Source of the DNA: Candidatus Gordonibacter avicola | GTDB lineage: Bacteria > Actinomycetota > Coriobacteriia > Coriobacteriales > Eggerthellaceae | Direction of reading: 5' to 3' | DNA: 64,000 nt | Assembly: GCA_019113915.1 (NCBI GenBank) | Contig: DXGM01000035.1 | Span: forward strand, 62,001 to 126,000 | Shown: positions 3,882-47,097 of the stretch, piece after piece | How the letters are laid out: every line of letters begins with the position of its first letter | Numbering within the stretch: position 1 is the first letter of the stretch | Notes under the pieces: generated by a model | Databases searched by the model: none | Seen by the model: the letters and a program-made list of their open reading frames with translations, nothing else | Told to the model about the DNA's origin: nothing | Program-made: the position numbers and the translations under genes

Positions 3882-4445
3882 TTAGTTGAACGCTTGTTGC
3901 GTTTTTTCGAGGCCGGCCGTTACCAGCGAAAGCGCTGCTTGCGCGCCGCGGTCGACCGCGTACGTGAAGTCCTCGGCGGCTTCCTTTTTTGGCAGCGACA
4001 GCACCCAGTCTACCACGGGCATGCGTCCCGGGGGGCGGCCGATGCCCACACGCACGCGGAACCAATCGCGCGTGCCCAGTTTATCACAGATGGAGCGCAG
4101 ACCGTTGTGGCCCGCGTGGCCGCCGCCGAACTTCACGCGCACGGTTCCGGGGTCGATGTCCAGTTCATCATGGATGATAATCAGGTGCTCCGCGTCCACG
4201 CCGTAGGCGTTCATGAGCTGCTTCACCGGACCACCCGACGTGTTCATGTAGCTTTGCGGCTTGGCTAGCACCAGGTCAACGTCGCGGTAGGCGCCCTTGG
4301 CCGTGAGCGCGCCACACTCGGTCTTCCAGTAGCGCGCACCCACCTCTTCCGCAATGGCGTCCACCGCGTCAAACCCGGCATTGTGTCGCGTATGCGCATA
4401 TTCGTCGCCCGGATTCCCCAGGCCCACAATGAGGAACATCGTCAC
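3882..4445 (-). CDS. pth: Peptidyl-tRNA hydrolase
   Basis: A 187-residue cytosolic enzyme that cleaves peptidyl-tRNA released from stalled ribosomes. The family signature is clear: GLGNPGDEYAHTRHNAGF, with catalytic His21 after TR, then KPQSYMNTSGGPV, and IIHDELDIDPG carrying the conserved Asp, followed by KFGGGHAGHNGLRSI. Length is normal. It lies 9 bp after prs on the same strand, the last gene of a glmU-prs-pth cluster. GTG at 4445 was kept because AGGGG lies six bases upstream; the ATG at 4439 is the alternative and gives MFLIVGLG. Confidence 0.97.
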   Translation of the reverse strand: MTMFLIVGLGNPGDEYAHTRHNAGFDAVDAIAEEVGARYWKTECGALTAKGAYRDVDLVLAKPQSYMNTSGGPVKQLMNAYGVDAEHLIIIHDELDIDPGTVRVKFGGGHAGHNGLRSICDKLGTRDWFRVRVGIGRPPGRMPVVDWVLSLPKKEAAEDFTYAVDRGAQAALSLVTAGLEKTQQAFN

Positions 4446-44609: not shown

Positions 44610-44868
44610 GACAGTTCCTTTCGTCGAAGCCATGATACCGAAAACGCCGCGCCGCCGCGCCCGGTTCCGCCGAATTCCCGCACGTTTCGACAGAAGGCCC
44701 ATCGGCCGAGCCCCTTCTTCCCTTTTTGTCAAATCTCACGCCGCCGTGAGCGGAGGCGCTGACGGCGCGAGCGGAGAAAAAAGCAGGCGGCTGTGCATTT
44801 CACCGATCATGCACGGCCGCTGCACAAGACGAACACGCTTGCGCCATACGTTTTTCAACGTCGGACCC

Positions 44869-44874
44869 TATAAT
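44869..44874 (+). promoter_or_regulatory. -10 box of small RNA unit A
   Basis: TATAAT seven bases before the likely RNA start. The upstream stretch CATACGTTTTTCAA is nearly repeated before unit B (CATATGTTTTTCAA), at the same distance from its -10 box, arguing for a shared promoter design. Confidence 0.6.
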
Positions 44875-44880
44875 GGGCCC

Positions 44881-45016
44881 TGCAAGCGAAAGGCTCCCCT
44901 CCTTTCAACTTGCACTGCTTGTACCCCTTACAAAGCAGTAGCGATGCCCCGAGCATCGCATCATCCCCTCCTTGTGGCCCGGTGGAGCTCCCCTCTCCCC
45001 CGGGCCGATCTGTTTG
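44881..45016 (+). ncRNA. Structured small RNA unit A, C-rich loops
   Basis: About 135 bases with no open frame fold into four hairpins. P1: TGCAAG-GAAAGG with CCTTTC-CTTGCA, loop CTCCCCT. P2: ACTGCTTGTA with TTACAAAGCAGT, loop containing CCCC. P3: GCGATGC/GCATCGC. A single-stranded CATCATCCCCTCCTTGT follows, then P4 GGCCCGG/CCGGGCC (44976-45006) with loop GAGCTCCCCTCTC and an interrupted T-run (TGTTTGTT). The four C-rich unpaired parts resemble the 16S anti-Shine-Dalgarno CCTCCTTTC. Unit B has the same plan with different, still paired stems. It is similar in spirit to the actinobacterial 6C RNA, but I cannot claim identity. Confidence 0.72.
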
Positions 45017-45067
45017 TTGCGCTGGCCTGCCGGCCACCGGAACTTCTCGACGCTGCGAAGCTTATTG

Positions 45068-45232
45068 GTTCCGGCGGCCTGCCGACCACCGGAACTTCTC
45101 GACGCTGCGAAGCTGTGTAGCGCCCCATCTTGCCGCTTGTGCGCTTACCCTCGCGTACCCAAGGTACGCTCGGCCGCGCGGCGCGACAATCTGGAGCACC
45201 ACACAGCTTCTCGCTGACTTACTACGCCAACC
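45068..45232 (-). repeat. Palindromic element copy 3 (beside RNA unit A)
   Basis: Reverse-oriented copy. Read on the minus strand: GGTTGGCGTAGTAAGTCAGC, GAGAAG; outer stem GAAGCTGTGTGG with CTACACAGCTTC; central hairpin GCGTAC-CTTGG-GTACGC; CTTCGCAGCGTCG; then a GTTCCGG-type hairpin that is partly decayed. A second, degraded half copy (GACGCTGCGAAG plus CACCGGAAC) lies at 45020-45062. A run of CAGGTTG-like short repeats continues to about 45280. Confidence 0.82.
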
Positions 45233-45376
45233 AGGGAGAGGGTGTTCAACCTGAAAGCGGGTGTTTCGACCAGGGATAAGCGAGCATCCTTCAACCGCCG
45301 GGGTATTTCCCATTGCATACCTGGTAACTCGGATTTATGATGGCGGTATCTTTTTGCGCGAGAAATGAGGGGCACC

Positions 45377-46498
45377 ATGTACCTGAAGGATAAGGTGTCG
45401 AAGCTGCCGTTGCCGGTGGTGCCGGCGACGCTTGGCCTGTTTGTACTGAGCGGCGTGTACGATGCGCTGGGCTATCCCCTCGTGCGGTGGCTGGCCGCGG
45501 CGGTGTCGGTGGCTGTGGTGGTGCTGTATGGACTGAAGATTGCGTTCCATCTGCGCAGTGTGGTGGCGGCGGAGTACGCGAACCCCATGTTGGCTGCCCT
45601 CTACCCCACCCTCCCTATGCTCATCATGGCACTCTGCGCGTACTTCGCGCCGCTTCTACCCGGCGCATGGGGGCTGTTCGAAGGCATATTCTTCCTGATG
45701 CTGGGCATATTGTTCGTGCACGTAGCCGTGTTTTTCGTACGCTTCTTCGTGCGCCGCTTCGAGTGGAAAACGTTTATGCCCAGCTGGTACGTCACCACTA
45801 ACGGCGTGATGGTGACCACGGTGGCAGGCATGGTGTTTATGCCGGAGCCGCTGGCCGTGGGCATTGTGGTGTGGGGCATCGCCATTTATGTGGTGGTGAC
45901 GCCGTTTATGCTGTGGCGCATGAAGCGTTGCGAGGTAGCCGAGGCCATGATGCACTCTCAAGCCATTATGCTGGGACCGTGCAGCATGTGTCTGGTGTCG
46001 TACGTGAACGTGTTTCCGGAGCCGAACCTGGTGGTGCTGGCGGCGCTCTTTGCGTGCGAGGCCGTGTCACTTATATATGTAGTGTGGAAGTTGCCGAAGT
46101 TTTTCAGCGTAGCGTTCCACCCCGGCTATGCGGGCATGACGTTTCCCATGGCCGTGGGCGTGCTGGCTACGCGCTTGCTGGCTTCAGCACTGGCAGCAGC
46201 AGGGTACGGGGAGCTGGCGGCAGCGGTCCAGCAGCTTGCCGGCTTGCAGCTGGTGATGGCCACGGTCATTGTTGCTGTGGTGTGTGCGCGGTTTGCGGGC
46301 ATGTTGGCTGCGGGATTGAAGGCCGACCGTTCTTCCGGGGCGCTTGCGCCCGAGCACCTGGCAGCACTGCGGGCGGTGCGGGCGTTCTTGCGCAGCGGAT
46401 CTGGCGATGTGGCTGCGCCAACTGAAGATTTCGTACCCGTTGCGGCCGGCGTGGCCTGTGAGGTTGACTGCGAAGAGGTGGCAAACGCGAAGGCGTAG
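45377..46498 (+). CDS. TDT-family (TehA/Mae1/SLAC1-like) transporter
   Basis: A 373-residue membrane protein with about ten hydrophobic helices, matching the tellurite-resistance/dicarboxylate transporter (TDT) family. Features are the start KLPLPVVPATLGLFVLSGVY, FMPSWYVTTNGVMVTT, the Gly/Pro-rich SQAIMLGPCSMCLVSYVN and AFHPGYAGMTFPMAVGVLAT. The C-terminal ~55 residues are hydrophilic and acidic. Substrates in the family include malate, chloride, nitrate and sulfite; none can be assigned. ATG at 45377 follows AGGGG; an upstream ATG at 45365 is less likely. The gene lies between the two RNA-plus-palindrome units, an odd arrangement. Confidence 0.85.
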   Translation: MYLKDKVSKLPLPVVPATLGLFVLSGVYDALGYPLVRWLAAAVSVAVVVLYGLKIAFHLRSVVAAEYANPMLAALYPTLPMLIMALCAYFAPLLPGAWGLFEGIFFLMLGILFVHVAVFFVRFFVRRFEWKTFMPSWYVTTNGVMVTTVAGMVFMPEPLAVGIVVWGIAIYVVVTPFMLWRMKRCEVAEAMMHSQAIMLGPCSMCLVSYVNVFPEPNLVVLAALFACEAVSLIYVVWKLPKFFSVAFHPGYAGMTFPMAVGVLATRLLASALAAAGYGELAAAVQQLAGLQLVMATVIVAVVCARFAGMLAAGLKADRSSGALAPEHLAALRAVRAFLRSGSGDVAAPTEDFVPVAAGVACEVDCEEVANAKA

Positions 46499-46619
46499 AA
46501 AACGGCTGTGGCAGAGCGGACGGGTTGTTTCGCGGACGGTTTTACCTAATTGTTACTTTCGAGGCCCCTGATTCACAAAACATGCACGTCGCGCTCATAT
46601 GTTTTTCAAGGCCAACTTT

Positions 46620-46625
46620 TATACT
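46620..46625 (+). promoter_or_regulatory. -10 box of small RNA unit B
   Basis: TATACT, preceded by CATATGTTTTTCAA as in unit A. No standard -35 hexamer is seen in either unit. Confidence 0.55.
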
Positions 46626-46631
46626 AACGTC

Positions 46632-46768
46632 AGCAAACGAAAGGCTCCCCTCCTTTTCAGTTTGCCTCTGCTTTAACCCCTTAAAAGCAGAGCGGTGTCA
46701 AAGAACACCGCATCATCCCCTCCTTGTGGCCCGGCGGAGCTCCCCTCTCCCCGGGCCGATCTTTTTTT
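46632..46768 (+). ncRNA. Structured small RNA unit B, C-rich loops
   Basis: Paralogue of unit A with the same four-hairpin plan. P1 GCAAAC/GTTTGC plus AAAGG/CCTTT, loop CTCCCCT (46633-46665). P2 CTCTGCTTT/AAAGCAGAG around ACCCC (46666-46691). P3 GCGGTGT/ACACCGC (46692-46711). Linker CATCATCCCCTCCTTGT, identical to unit A. P4 GGCCCGG (46728-46734) with CCGGGCC (46751-46757), then seven T (46762-46768), a good terminator. P1, P2 and P3 differ from unit A in sequence but keep pairing (for example GCGATGC:GCATCGC becomes GCGGTGT:ACACCGC). No open frame of note lies within. Confidence 0.78.
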
Positions 46769-46932
46769 GTTCCGGCGGCCTGCCGGCCGCCGGAACTCCT
46801 CGACGCTGCGAAGCTGTGTGGTACCCCATCTTGCCGCTTGTGCGCTTGCCTTCGCGTACCAAAGTACGCTCAGCCGCGCGGCGCGGCAATCTGGTGCACC
46901 ACACAGCTTCTCGCTGACTTACTACGCCAACC
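46769..46932 (-). repeat. Palindromic element copy 4 (beside RNA unit B)
   Basis: Begins at the base after the T-run of RNA unit B with the hairpin GTTCCGGCGGC/GGCCGCCGGAAC, then CGACGCTGCGAAG, stem GAAGCTGTGTGG/CCACACAGCTTC, central hairpin around GCGTAC-TTTG-GTACGC and the flank ending CTACGCCAACC. It is close in sequence to copy 3. CAGGTTG-like short repeats (minus strand) continue to about 46982 at 21-25 bp spacing. Confidence 0.85.
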
Positions 46933-47097
46933 TGGGAGTGGGATGGATTCACCAACCTGGGAGGTAATGTTTTCAACCTGTGGGGCCATGCTTCCTCCTG
47001 GTTACCTTGTTGTGGCGGTGGGCGAGCGGGGGTGGAGGCGCGCGTGGGGGCTGATACAATCGCGAAAAAACCATTTGGCTCTCGGAAGGAGCGCGCT

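Follow-up and report, generated by a model that had tools for sequence, protein, structure and literature searches.

The DNA analysed here, called the window, is a stretch of 64,000 nucleotides (nt) from Candidatus Gordonibacter avicola (contig DXGM01000035.1, positions 62,001 to 126,000), whose genome (G000) comprises 3.08 Mb in 49 contigs. The window holds two similar units, A and B. We consider it probable that both are paralogous members of a DNA family spread across the Eggerthellaceae, and that this family encodes trans-acting small RNAs (sRNAs) with anti-Shine-Dalgarno motifs, transcribed from promoters that an OmpR/PhoB-type regulator likely switches. On sequence grounds, the units carry the marks of an anti-Shine-Dalgarno sRNA, namely an exposed and conserved complementary motif together with a predicted promoter and terminator of their own. 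A conserved multi-copy family with covarying stems and a response-regulator-like repeat array would offer a testable entry to post-transcriptional control in the Eggerthellaceae.

Architecture and fold of the two units

The features of both units, all on the forward (+) strand, are as follows.

44799..44864, +: unit A operator, six 11-bp direct repeats TTCACCGATCA TGCACGGCCGC TGCACAAGACG AACACGCTTGC GCCATACGTTT TTCAACGTCGG
44869..44874, +: unit A -10 box TATAAT
44881..45013, +: unit A predicted small RNA, approximately 133 nt (start placed by the -10 box, end by the terminator)
44882..44913, +: unit A hairpin 1, loop CUCCCCU (fold, covariation, unpaired probability)
44914..44939, +: unit A hairpin 2, loop CCCCU (fold, covariation, unpaired probability)
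44941..44959, +: unit A hairpin 3 (fold, covariation, motif count)
44960..44975, +: unit A single-stranded linker ATCATCCCCTCCTTGT, complementary to ACAAGGAGGGGAUGAU (mean unpaired probability 0.94)
44976..45006, +: unit A hairpin 4 / terminator, loop CUCCCCU (fold, covariation, motif count)
46542..46557, +: unit B further upstream element TTACCTAATTGTTACT, common to many B-type promoters (by eye, uncounted)
46572..46615, +: unit B operator, four 11-bp direct repeats TTCACAAAACA TGCACGTCGCG CTCATATGTTT TTCAAGGCCAA
46620..46625, +: unit B -10 box TATACT
46632..46768, +: unit B predicted small RNA, approximately 137 nt (fold, match to covariance model R2, unpaired probability)
46633..46665, +: unit B hairpin 1, loop CUCCCCUC (fold, covariation, unpaired probability)
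46667..46691, +: unit B hairpin 2, loop with ACCCC (fold, covariation, unpaired probability)
46692..46711, +: unit B hairpin 3 (fold, covariation)
46712..46727, +: unit B single-stranded linker ATCATCCCCTCCTTGT (mean unpaired probability 0.95)
46728..46757, +: unit B hairpin 4 / terminator, loop CUCCCCU, then seven T at 46762-46768

An earlier reading of the window, made from the sequence only, had described in both units the same order of CATAyGTTTTTCAA, a TATAAT or TATACT box, three hairpins and a GGCCCGG/CCGGGCC hairpin, and this order was found again at the same places. The linker said to be identical in the two units was recovered as the 17-nt CATCATCCCCTCCTTGT, and so were the seven T behind the terminator hairpin of unit B. 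The T tract of unit A is weak (CTGTTTGTT). The earlier reading had overlooked the 11-bp repeats upstream of the -10 boxes, the occurrence of the family in other genomes, and a dispersed repeat that comes after both units.

The predicted folding energies of units A and B were -55.2 and -54.1 kcal/mol, compared to means of -33.8 and -33.0 kcal/mol for dinucleotide shuffles; the corresponding z-scores were -6.26 and -6.58, and none of 200 shuffles was as low in either case. When folding was begun at the predicted +1, the CCCC stretches in the loops and the linker had mean unpaired probabilities of 0.82-0.99. The earlier statement that all C-rich motifs are unpaired thus holds for these stretches, but in unit A the CCTTTC part of CCTCCTTTC is paired within the stem of hairpin 1; this stem sequence is variable across the RNA family. 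Moreover, four hairpins and an open linker were predicted from +1 in all 34 distinct copies that were retrieved by DNA similarity and aligned, with a lowest mean unpaired probability of 0.89 for the linker.

The four-hairpin fold is under selection, with compensatory changes. In a first consensus fold of the whole alignment (model R1), the 5' end was paired with hairpin 2, a consequence of MAFFT having set hairpin 2 out of register; R1 was dropped, used for no search and replaced by R2, a four-hairpin covariance model built from 14 better-aligned copies, unit B among them. In the alignment fitted to R2, 95.8% of the cells were paired across 69 distinct rows, and two-sided changes occurred in at least one row at 31 of the 37 base pairs. 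Doubly changed cells numbered 217 compared to 56.5 in the shuffles, and this alignment favours the model, since it was fitted to R2 and includes the sequences from which R2 was built, yet the gap is very large. None of 500 shuffles reached any of the five covariation measures, and pairing was only 29.8-48.8% when the partners were slid by 1-3 columns. All four hairpins contributed to the compensatory changes. The same fold was present in each of 20 R2 matches taken from among the weakest, the two lowest of which may be false.

Spread, motifs and promoters of the family

In a DNA search of 60 genomes (G000 included), copies were found in 18 of the 36 genomes from the same family and in none of the 24 from other families. 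R2 gave 95 matches in 78 partly overlapping sources; unit A scored 116.6 bits and unit B, itself one of the 14 building sequences, 152.6 bits. The comparative search that had been suggested for further copies was productive, as 101 of 138 Eggerthellaceae genomes (37 of 48 genera) matched R2, with 1-4 matches each. In a class-wide sample, 62 of 296 genomes matched and all 62 were Eggerthellaceae; both of these genome searches used stricter filters, which lose weak matches. Furthermore, a pattern scan of a named genome collection yielded 55 stretches, of which 51 were tested by R2 and four were duplicated loci already used. R2 confirmed 30 of the 51, all from records named Eggerthellaceae, Coriobacteriaceae or Coriobacteriia or carrying no name, and the confirmed genera were Gordonibacter, Eggerthella, Paraeggerthella, Rubneribacter, Enteroscipio, Raoultibacter, Adlercreutzia, Enterorhabdus, Parvibacter and other Eggerthellaceae. 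The 21 stretches on which R2 failed (19 named as other groups, 2 nameless) were taken as chance. A pattern scan of viral contigs gave no match.

The motifs predicted to be exposed are strongly conserved, namely UCCCCU at hairpin loops 1 and 4, and in the linker CCCCUCCUU or a closely similar sequence. Of the 34 copies from the DNA similarity search, every one contains CCCCTCCTT and 31 contain at least three CCCCTC. Removal of duplicates and of rows of 120 nt or less from the 95 matches left 66 distinct model-aligned copies, many of whose loci had been retrieved by a pattern requiring the linker and TCCCCT; CCCCTCCTT was present in the linker of 66/66, CCCCTCC in hairpin 1 of 60/66 and CCCCT in hairpin 4 of 65/66, and CCCCTC occurred exactly three times in 59/66. 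The commonest linker, CAUCAUCCCCUCCUUGU, is complementary to ACAAGGAGGGGAUGAUG, which is a strong Shine-Dalgarno sequence followed by AUG.

The likeness of these motifs to the tail of 16S rRNA, also put forward in the sequence-only reading, stands in part. A pattern for the 16S 3' end had no match in G000, and the end was read as GGATCACCTCCTTTCT in the same-genus relative G002. The linker shares CCUCCUU with that tail, mostly with CC where the tail has CA. The C-rich loops are complementary to Shine-Dalgarno sequences as claimed, but identity beyond CCUCC is no feature of the family.

Sixty upstream regions, 56 of them non-redundant, were anchored on a TATAMT or TACAAT box near the start of the RNA, and the conservation of the -10 box in the resulting table is therefore by construction. 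TTGACA was found in the last 60 bases of none of the 60 regions. Among the best-conserved upstream positions were CA at -58, -47, -36 and -25 and T at -60 and -27. All four CA were present in 47 of the 56 non-redundant promoters and at least three in 53; at least three were also present in 14 of the 20 weak R2 matches, which had been selected by no pattern. CA-to-CA distances peaked at 11, 22 and 33. Unit B has its CA at -58, -47, -36 and -25, and unit A at -80, -69, -58, -47, -36 and -25, so that the unit A array spans the site of the usual -35 box. With up to 3 mismatches allowed, the operator pattern matched nothing in G000 but the two sRNA promoters. In a matrix scan of 464 kb, the operators of the two units scored 53.4 and 45.9 and the next best sites 13.7 and 12.6, while the reversed-matrix control reached 5.7.

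The sRNA promoters thus have the direct repeats of 11-bp period that characterise OmpR/PhoB-type operators. Since this spacing matches the pattern of that regulator family, the promoters are likely switched by a putative OmpR/PhoB-type response regulator. According to the available excerpts of two papers, PhoP of M. tuberculosis binds 7-bp direct repeats separated by 4 bp, and direct repeat units of 11 nt make up the PHO box (PMC4832192, PMC4415409). The TTCACA core of the sRNA promoters is close to the TCACAGC of M. tuberculosis PhoP, as given in those excerpts.

Known RNA families and possible function

At the gathering score, neither the window nor 16 loci from relatives gave a match in Rfam, and the architecture lies outside the public catalogue, in line with the earlier reading. 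The suggested tie to 6C RNA (RF01066) came down to resemblance. At the gathering score of 47 bits, no RF01066 match was obtained in the window, in the 16 loci or, with stricter filters, in any of 60 relatives; the best one below that score (41.4 bits, G001) lay at another locus and by eye looked like a plain terminator. 6C RNA is likewise actinobacterial with conserved cytosines in stem-loops; however, it is defined by two stem-loops with six conserved cytosines over 75 model positions, whereas the Eggerthellaceae RNA has four hairpins and a linker, and its loops are mostly UCCCCU with four C. The review PMC8628891 describes a mycobacterial 6C member that interacts with mRNA targets. A permissive Rfam scan of the region gave seven matches, RF01066 not among them, all below the cut-off and judged to be chance; the best was alpha-r14 (RF02344), with 20.2 bits (E 0.53) compared to the 58.8 bits needed. 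There is thus next to no prospect that the family is a diverged 6C or alpha-r14 RNA, although it shares with them the design idea of C-rich or anti-Shine-Dalgarno loops and alpha-r14 heads the weak matches. Firmicutes C-rich-loop sRNAs, such as RsaE of the UCCC family of S. aureus, pair with Shine-Dalgarno sequences through UCCC loops; they belong to another phylum and have another architecture, and are set apart by this description and by the absent Rfam match.

The alphaproteobacterial RNAs alpha-r14, NfeR1, SmelA075 and SmelA099 form one family of cuckoo RNAs. In the available excerpts of PMC10746234 and PMC3927594, the rhizobial alpha-r14 sRNAs carry a repeated CCUCCUCCC on variable stems, have three redundant motifs and silence mRNAs at the ribosome binding site; SmelA075 is multi-copy per genome, and NfeR1 silences ntrB at its ribosome binding site. 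As far as these excerpts go, both families have 3-4 hairpins, a C-rich anti-Shine-Dalgarno motif in unpaired regions and variable stems. In contrast to alpha-r14, which has CCUCCUCCC in every hairpin loop, the Eggerthellaceae RNA has UCCCCU in hairpins 1 and 4, mostly no C in the loop of hairpin 3, and its longest conserved motif, CCCCUCCUU, in the linker between hairpins 3 and 4, and it comes from a different phylum. The NfeR1 promoter is under LsrB and NtrC in the same excerpts, whereas the Eggerthellaceae units have 11-bp repeats.

By this analogy, the best reading is that the family works like alpha-r14/NfeR1 without being a member of it. A phosphorylated response regulator would bind the repeats head to tail beside the -10 box and turn the RNA on. 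The RNA would present approximately three equivalent C-rich seeds for pairing with ribosome binding sites of the AGGAGGGG type, and this pairing would block translation initiation of a set of mRNAs. Dose and timing would be set by the several tandem copies and their different arrays. Because of the analogy with the alpha-r14 RNAs, the RNA likely blocks initiation on several mRNAs once the regulator is active. If so, the alpha-r14 design, in which one anti-ribosome-site motif is repeated on freely evolving stems, would have an independent counterpart in another phylum.

Several observations weigh against this reading. Of the 376 genes crudely called in 464 kb of G000, one had AAGGAGGGG and seven had AAGGAGGG within -22..-1, although the choice of starts in this screen favours Shine-Dalgarno sites; the top target duplexes looked like generic Shine-Dalgarno matches, and no named target was supported. 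R2 had no match in 37 of the 138 Eggerthellaceae genomes under the stricter filters, and 3 of the 56 promoters have no array. Hairpin 2 has CCC in only 46 of the 66 copies, and hairpin 3 mostly lacks a C-rich loop. The exact CCCCTCCTT occurs in only 11 of the 20 weak R2 matches, which were unselected by motif, and CCCTCC is kept at the linker place in 18 of them by eye, for example as TTCCCTCCTTG; the linker is therefore strongly conserved but not invariant. When the RNA was started six bases earlier, long-range 5' pairs with the linker or the 3' end arose in 26 of the 34 copies and linker openness fell to 0.48-0.99, partly closed in some copies, while four hairpins and an open linker were kept in 31/34. 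The exact start of the RNA hence matters. Moreover, no such array was noticed by eye at the pst operon of G000, where it would have supported the phosphate regulon as the signal (a stretch of 1.07 kb reaching from upstream into pstS, on which no scan was run).

The main rival explanation, which we regard as unlikely, is a protein sponge, whose C-rich loops and linker would titrate an RNA-binding protein (e.g., a KH or cold-shock protein), mRNA pairing not being the function. GGA-loop RNAs titrate CsrA in this manner, and protein-titrating sRNAs also show repeated short motifs on variable stems, as the present RNA does with several similar short motifs on freely varying stems. However, the stretch with the highest conservation, CCCCUCCUU or a variant that keeps CCCUCC, is not merely C-rich but the complement of a strong ribosome binding site. 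We are more doubtful about a broader form of mRNA pairing, in which a two-component-controlled bank of 1-4 anti-ribosome-site RNAs would gate initiation cell-wide in the Eggerthellaceae. Here CAUCAUCCCCUCCUUGU would be the antisense of the whole initiation site, Shine-Dalgarno sequence and AUG, and therefore one short RNA would act as a translational dimmer, in gut bacteria that metabolise drugs and plant compounds.

It is improbable that the RNA is a global translation brake that behaves like a free 16S tail and competes for Shine-Dalgarno sequences in general, with no defined mRNA set. The CCUCCUU shared with the 16S 3' end, the generic complementarity of the linker to G-rich ribosome binding sites and the presence of up to four copies per genome would agree with it, but the RNA would have to be very abundant, and most linkers read CCCCUCCUU and not the ACCUCCUUU of the 16S tail, which suggests selection for something other than exact 16S mimicry. 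A cis-acting leader or attenuator of the downstream gene is very improbable. Although unit A lies 5' of a SLAC1-like gene and unit B 5' of a 2-hydroxyacid dehydrogenase gene, each on the same strand, the modelled copies end in a terminator-like hairpin, the adjoining genes differ in kind and strand among 33 loci, and a dispersed repeat of approximately 170 bp lies between each window unit and the next gene.

Eggerthella, Gordonibacter, Adlercreutzia and their kin are gut bacteria that transform drugs and polyphenols. In a limited literature search (titles and abstract openings), no regulatory sRNA was described for them among the matches listed; many of the publications lacked these genera, which makes this a weak indication of absence. 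In a microbiome survey covering thousands of candidate structured RNAs, the main text mentions none of Eggerthella, Gordonibacter and Coriobacter, and the supplements may hold the motif unnamed (PMC8040213).

Paralogue classes and gene neighbourhood

After overlapping-locus repeats and copies without 140 upstream bases had been dropped, 60 of the 95 matches were placed in a tree. By a written promoter pattern, 13 of the 60 copies were assigned to class A (AAGACGAACAC-like core), and the other 47 were called B. In the tree of the RNA bodies without promoters, the A/B label changed 6 times compared to 11.9 in the shuffles, with 0/500 as low. Unit A was nearest to A copies of other Gordonibacter genomes, and unit B to B copies of Gordonibacter and Enteroscipio. 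Class A is also represented in Eggerthella, Rubneribacter, Enteroscipio and G011, and the A and B classes therefore look older than the genus, though 23 of the 57 inner branches are open.

The units neighbour genes for NrdD, a homocysteine S-methyltransferase-like protein, a 2-hydroxyacid dehydrogenase, a nucleotidyl transferase and cytochrome c assembly, and the SLAC1-like channel gene sits between units A and B. Among the 33 loci (crude gene calls, BLAST-clustered), the recurring neighbours were methyltransferase-like (11), nucleotidyl-transferase-like (8) and NrdD (7) genes, which suggests that part of the family keeps an ancestral place. An AAA ATPase gene, which we take to be RarA, was found at 6 loci.

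The SLAC1-like gene has GAGGGG just 5' of its second in-frame ATG (45367-45379). This sequence is complementary to the CCCCUC of the RNAs, but extends over six bases only and may be chance. The repeat of approximately 170 bp lies 3' of both units (45071-45242 and 46772-46945), and its copy at unit B starts with the hairpin GTTCCGGCGG...CCGCCGGAAC. Since it has 41 matches in G000, including the two unit copies and one antisense self-match, it is a dispersed genome repeat and no part of the RNA units.

Elsewhere in G000, a hairpin AGGAGGGGGC...GCCCCCTCCT beside a crude gene call (L161, approximately 3907-3947, contig C16) combines Shine-Dalgarno-like and anti-Shine-Dalgarno-like blocks, and could be a terminator or a decoy for the RNAs. 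The pst-type operon is headed by a PstS-like phosphate-binding protein (L186:3999-5009, contig C17) in which the halves of PF12849 stand in swapped order, as in a circular permutation. A search of 31 genomes, G000 among them, gave a near-full-length PF12849 match in swapped order in 10 more; nine of these belong to the same family and one (G040) to a different family. In many other genomes, the PF12849 match fell into two split pieces, as if in the usual order.

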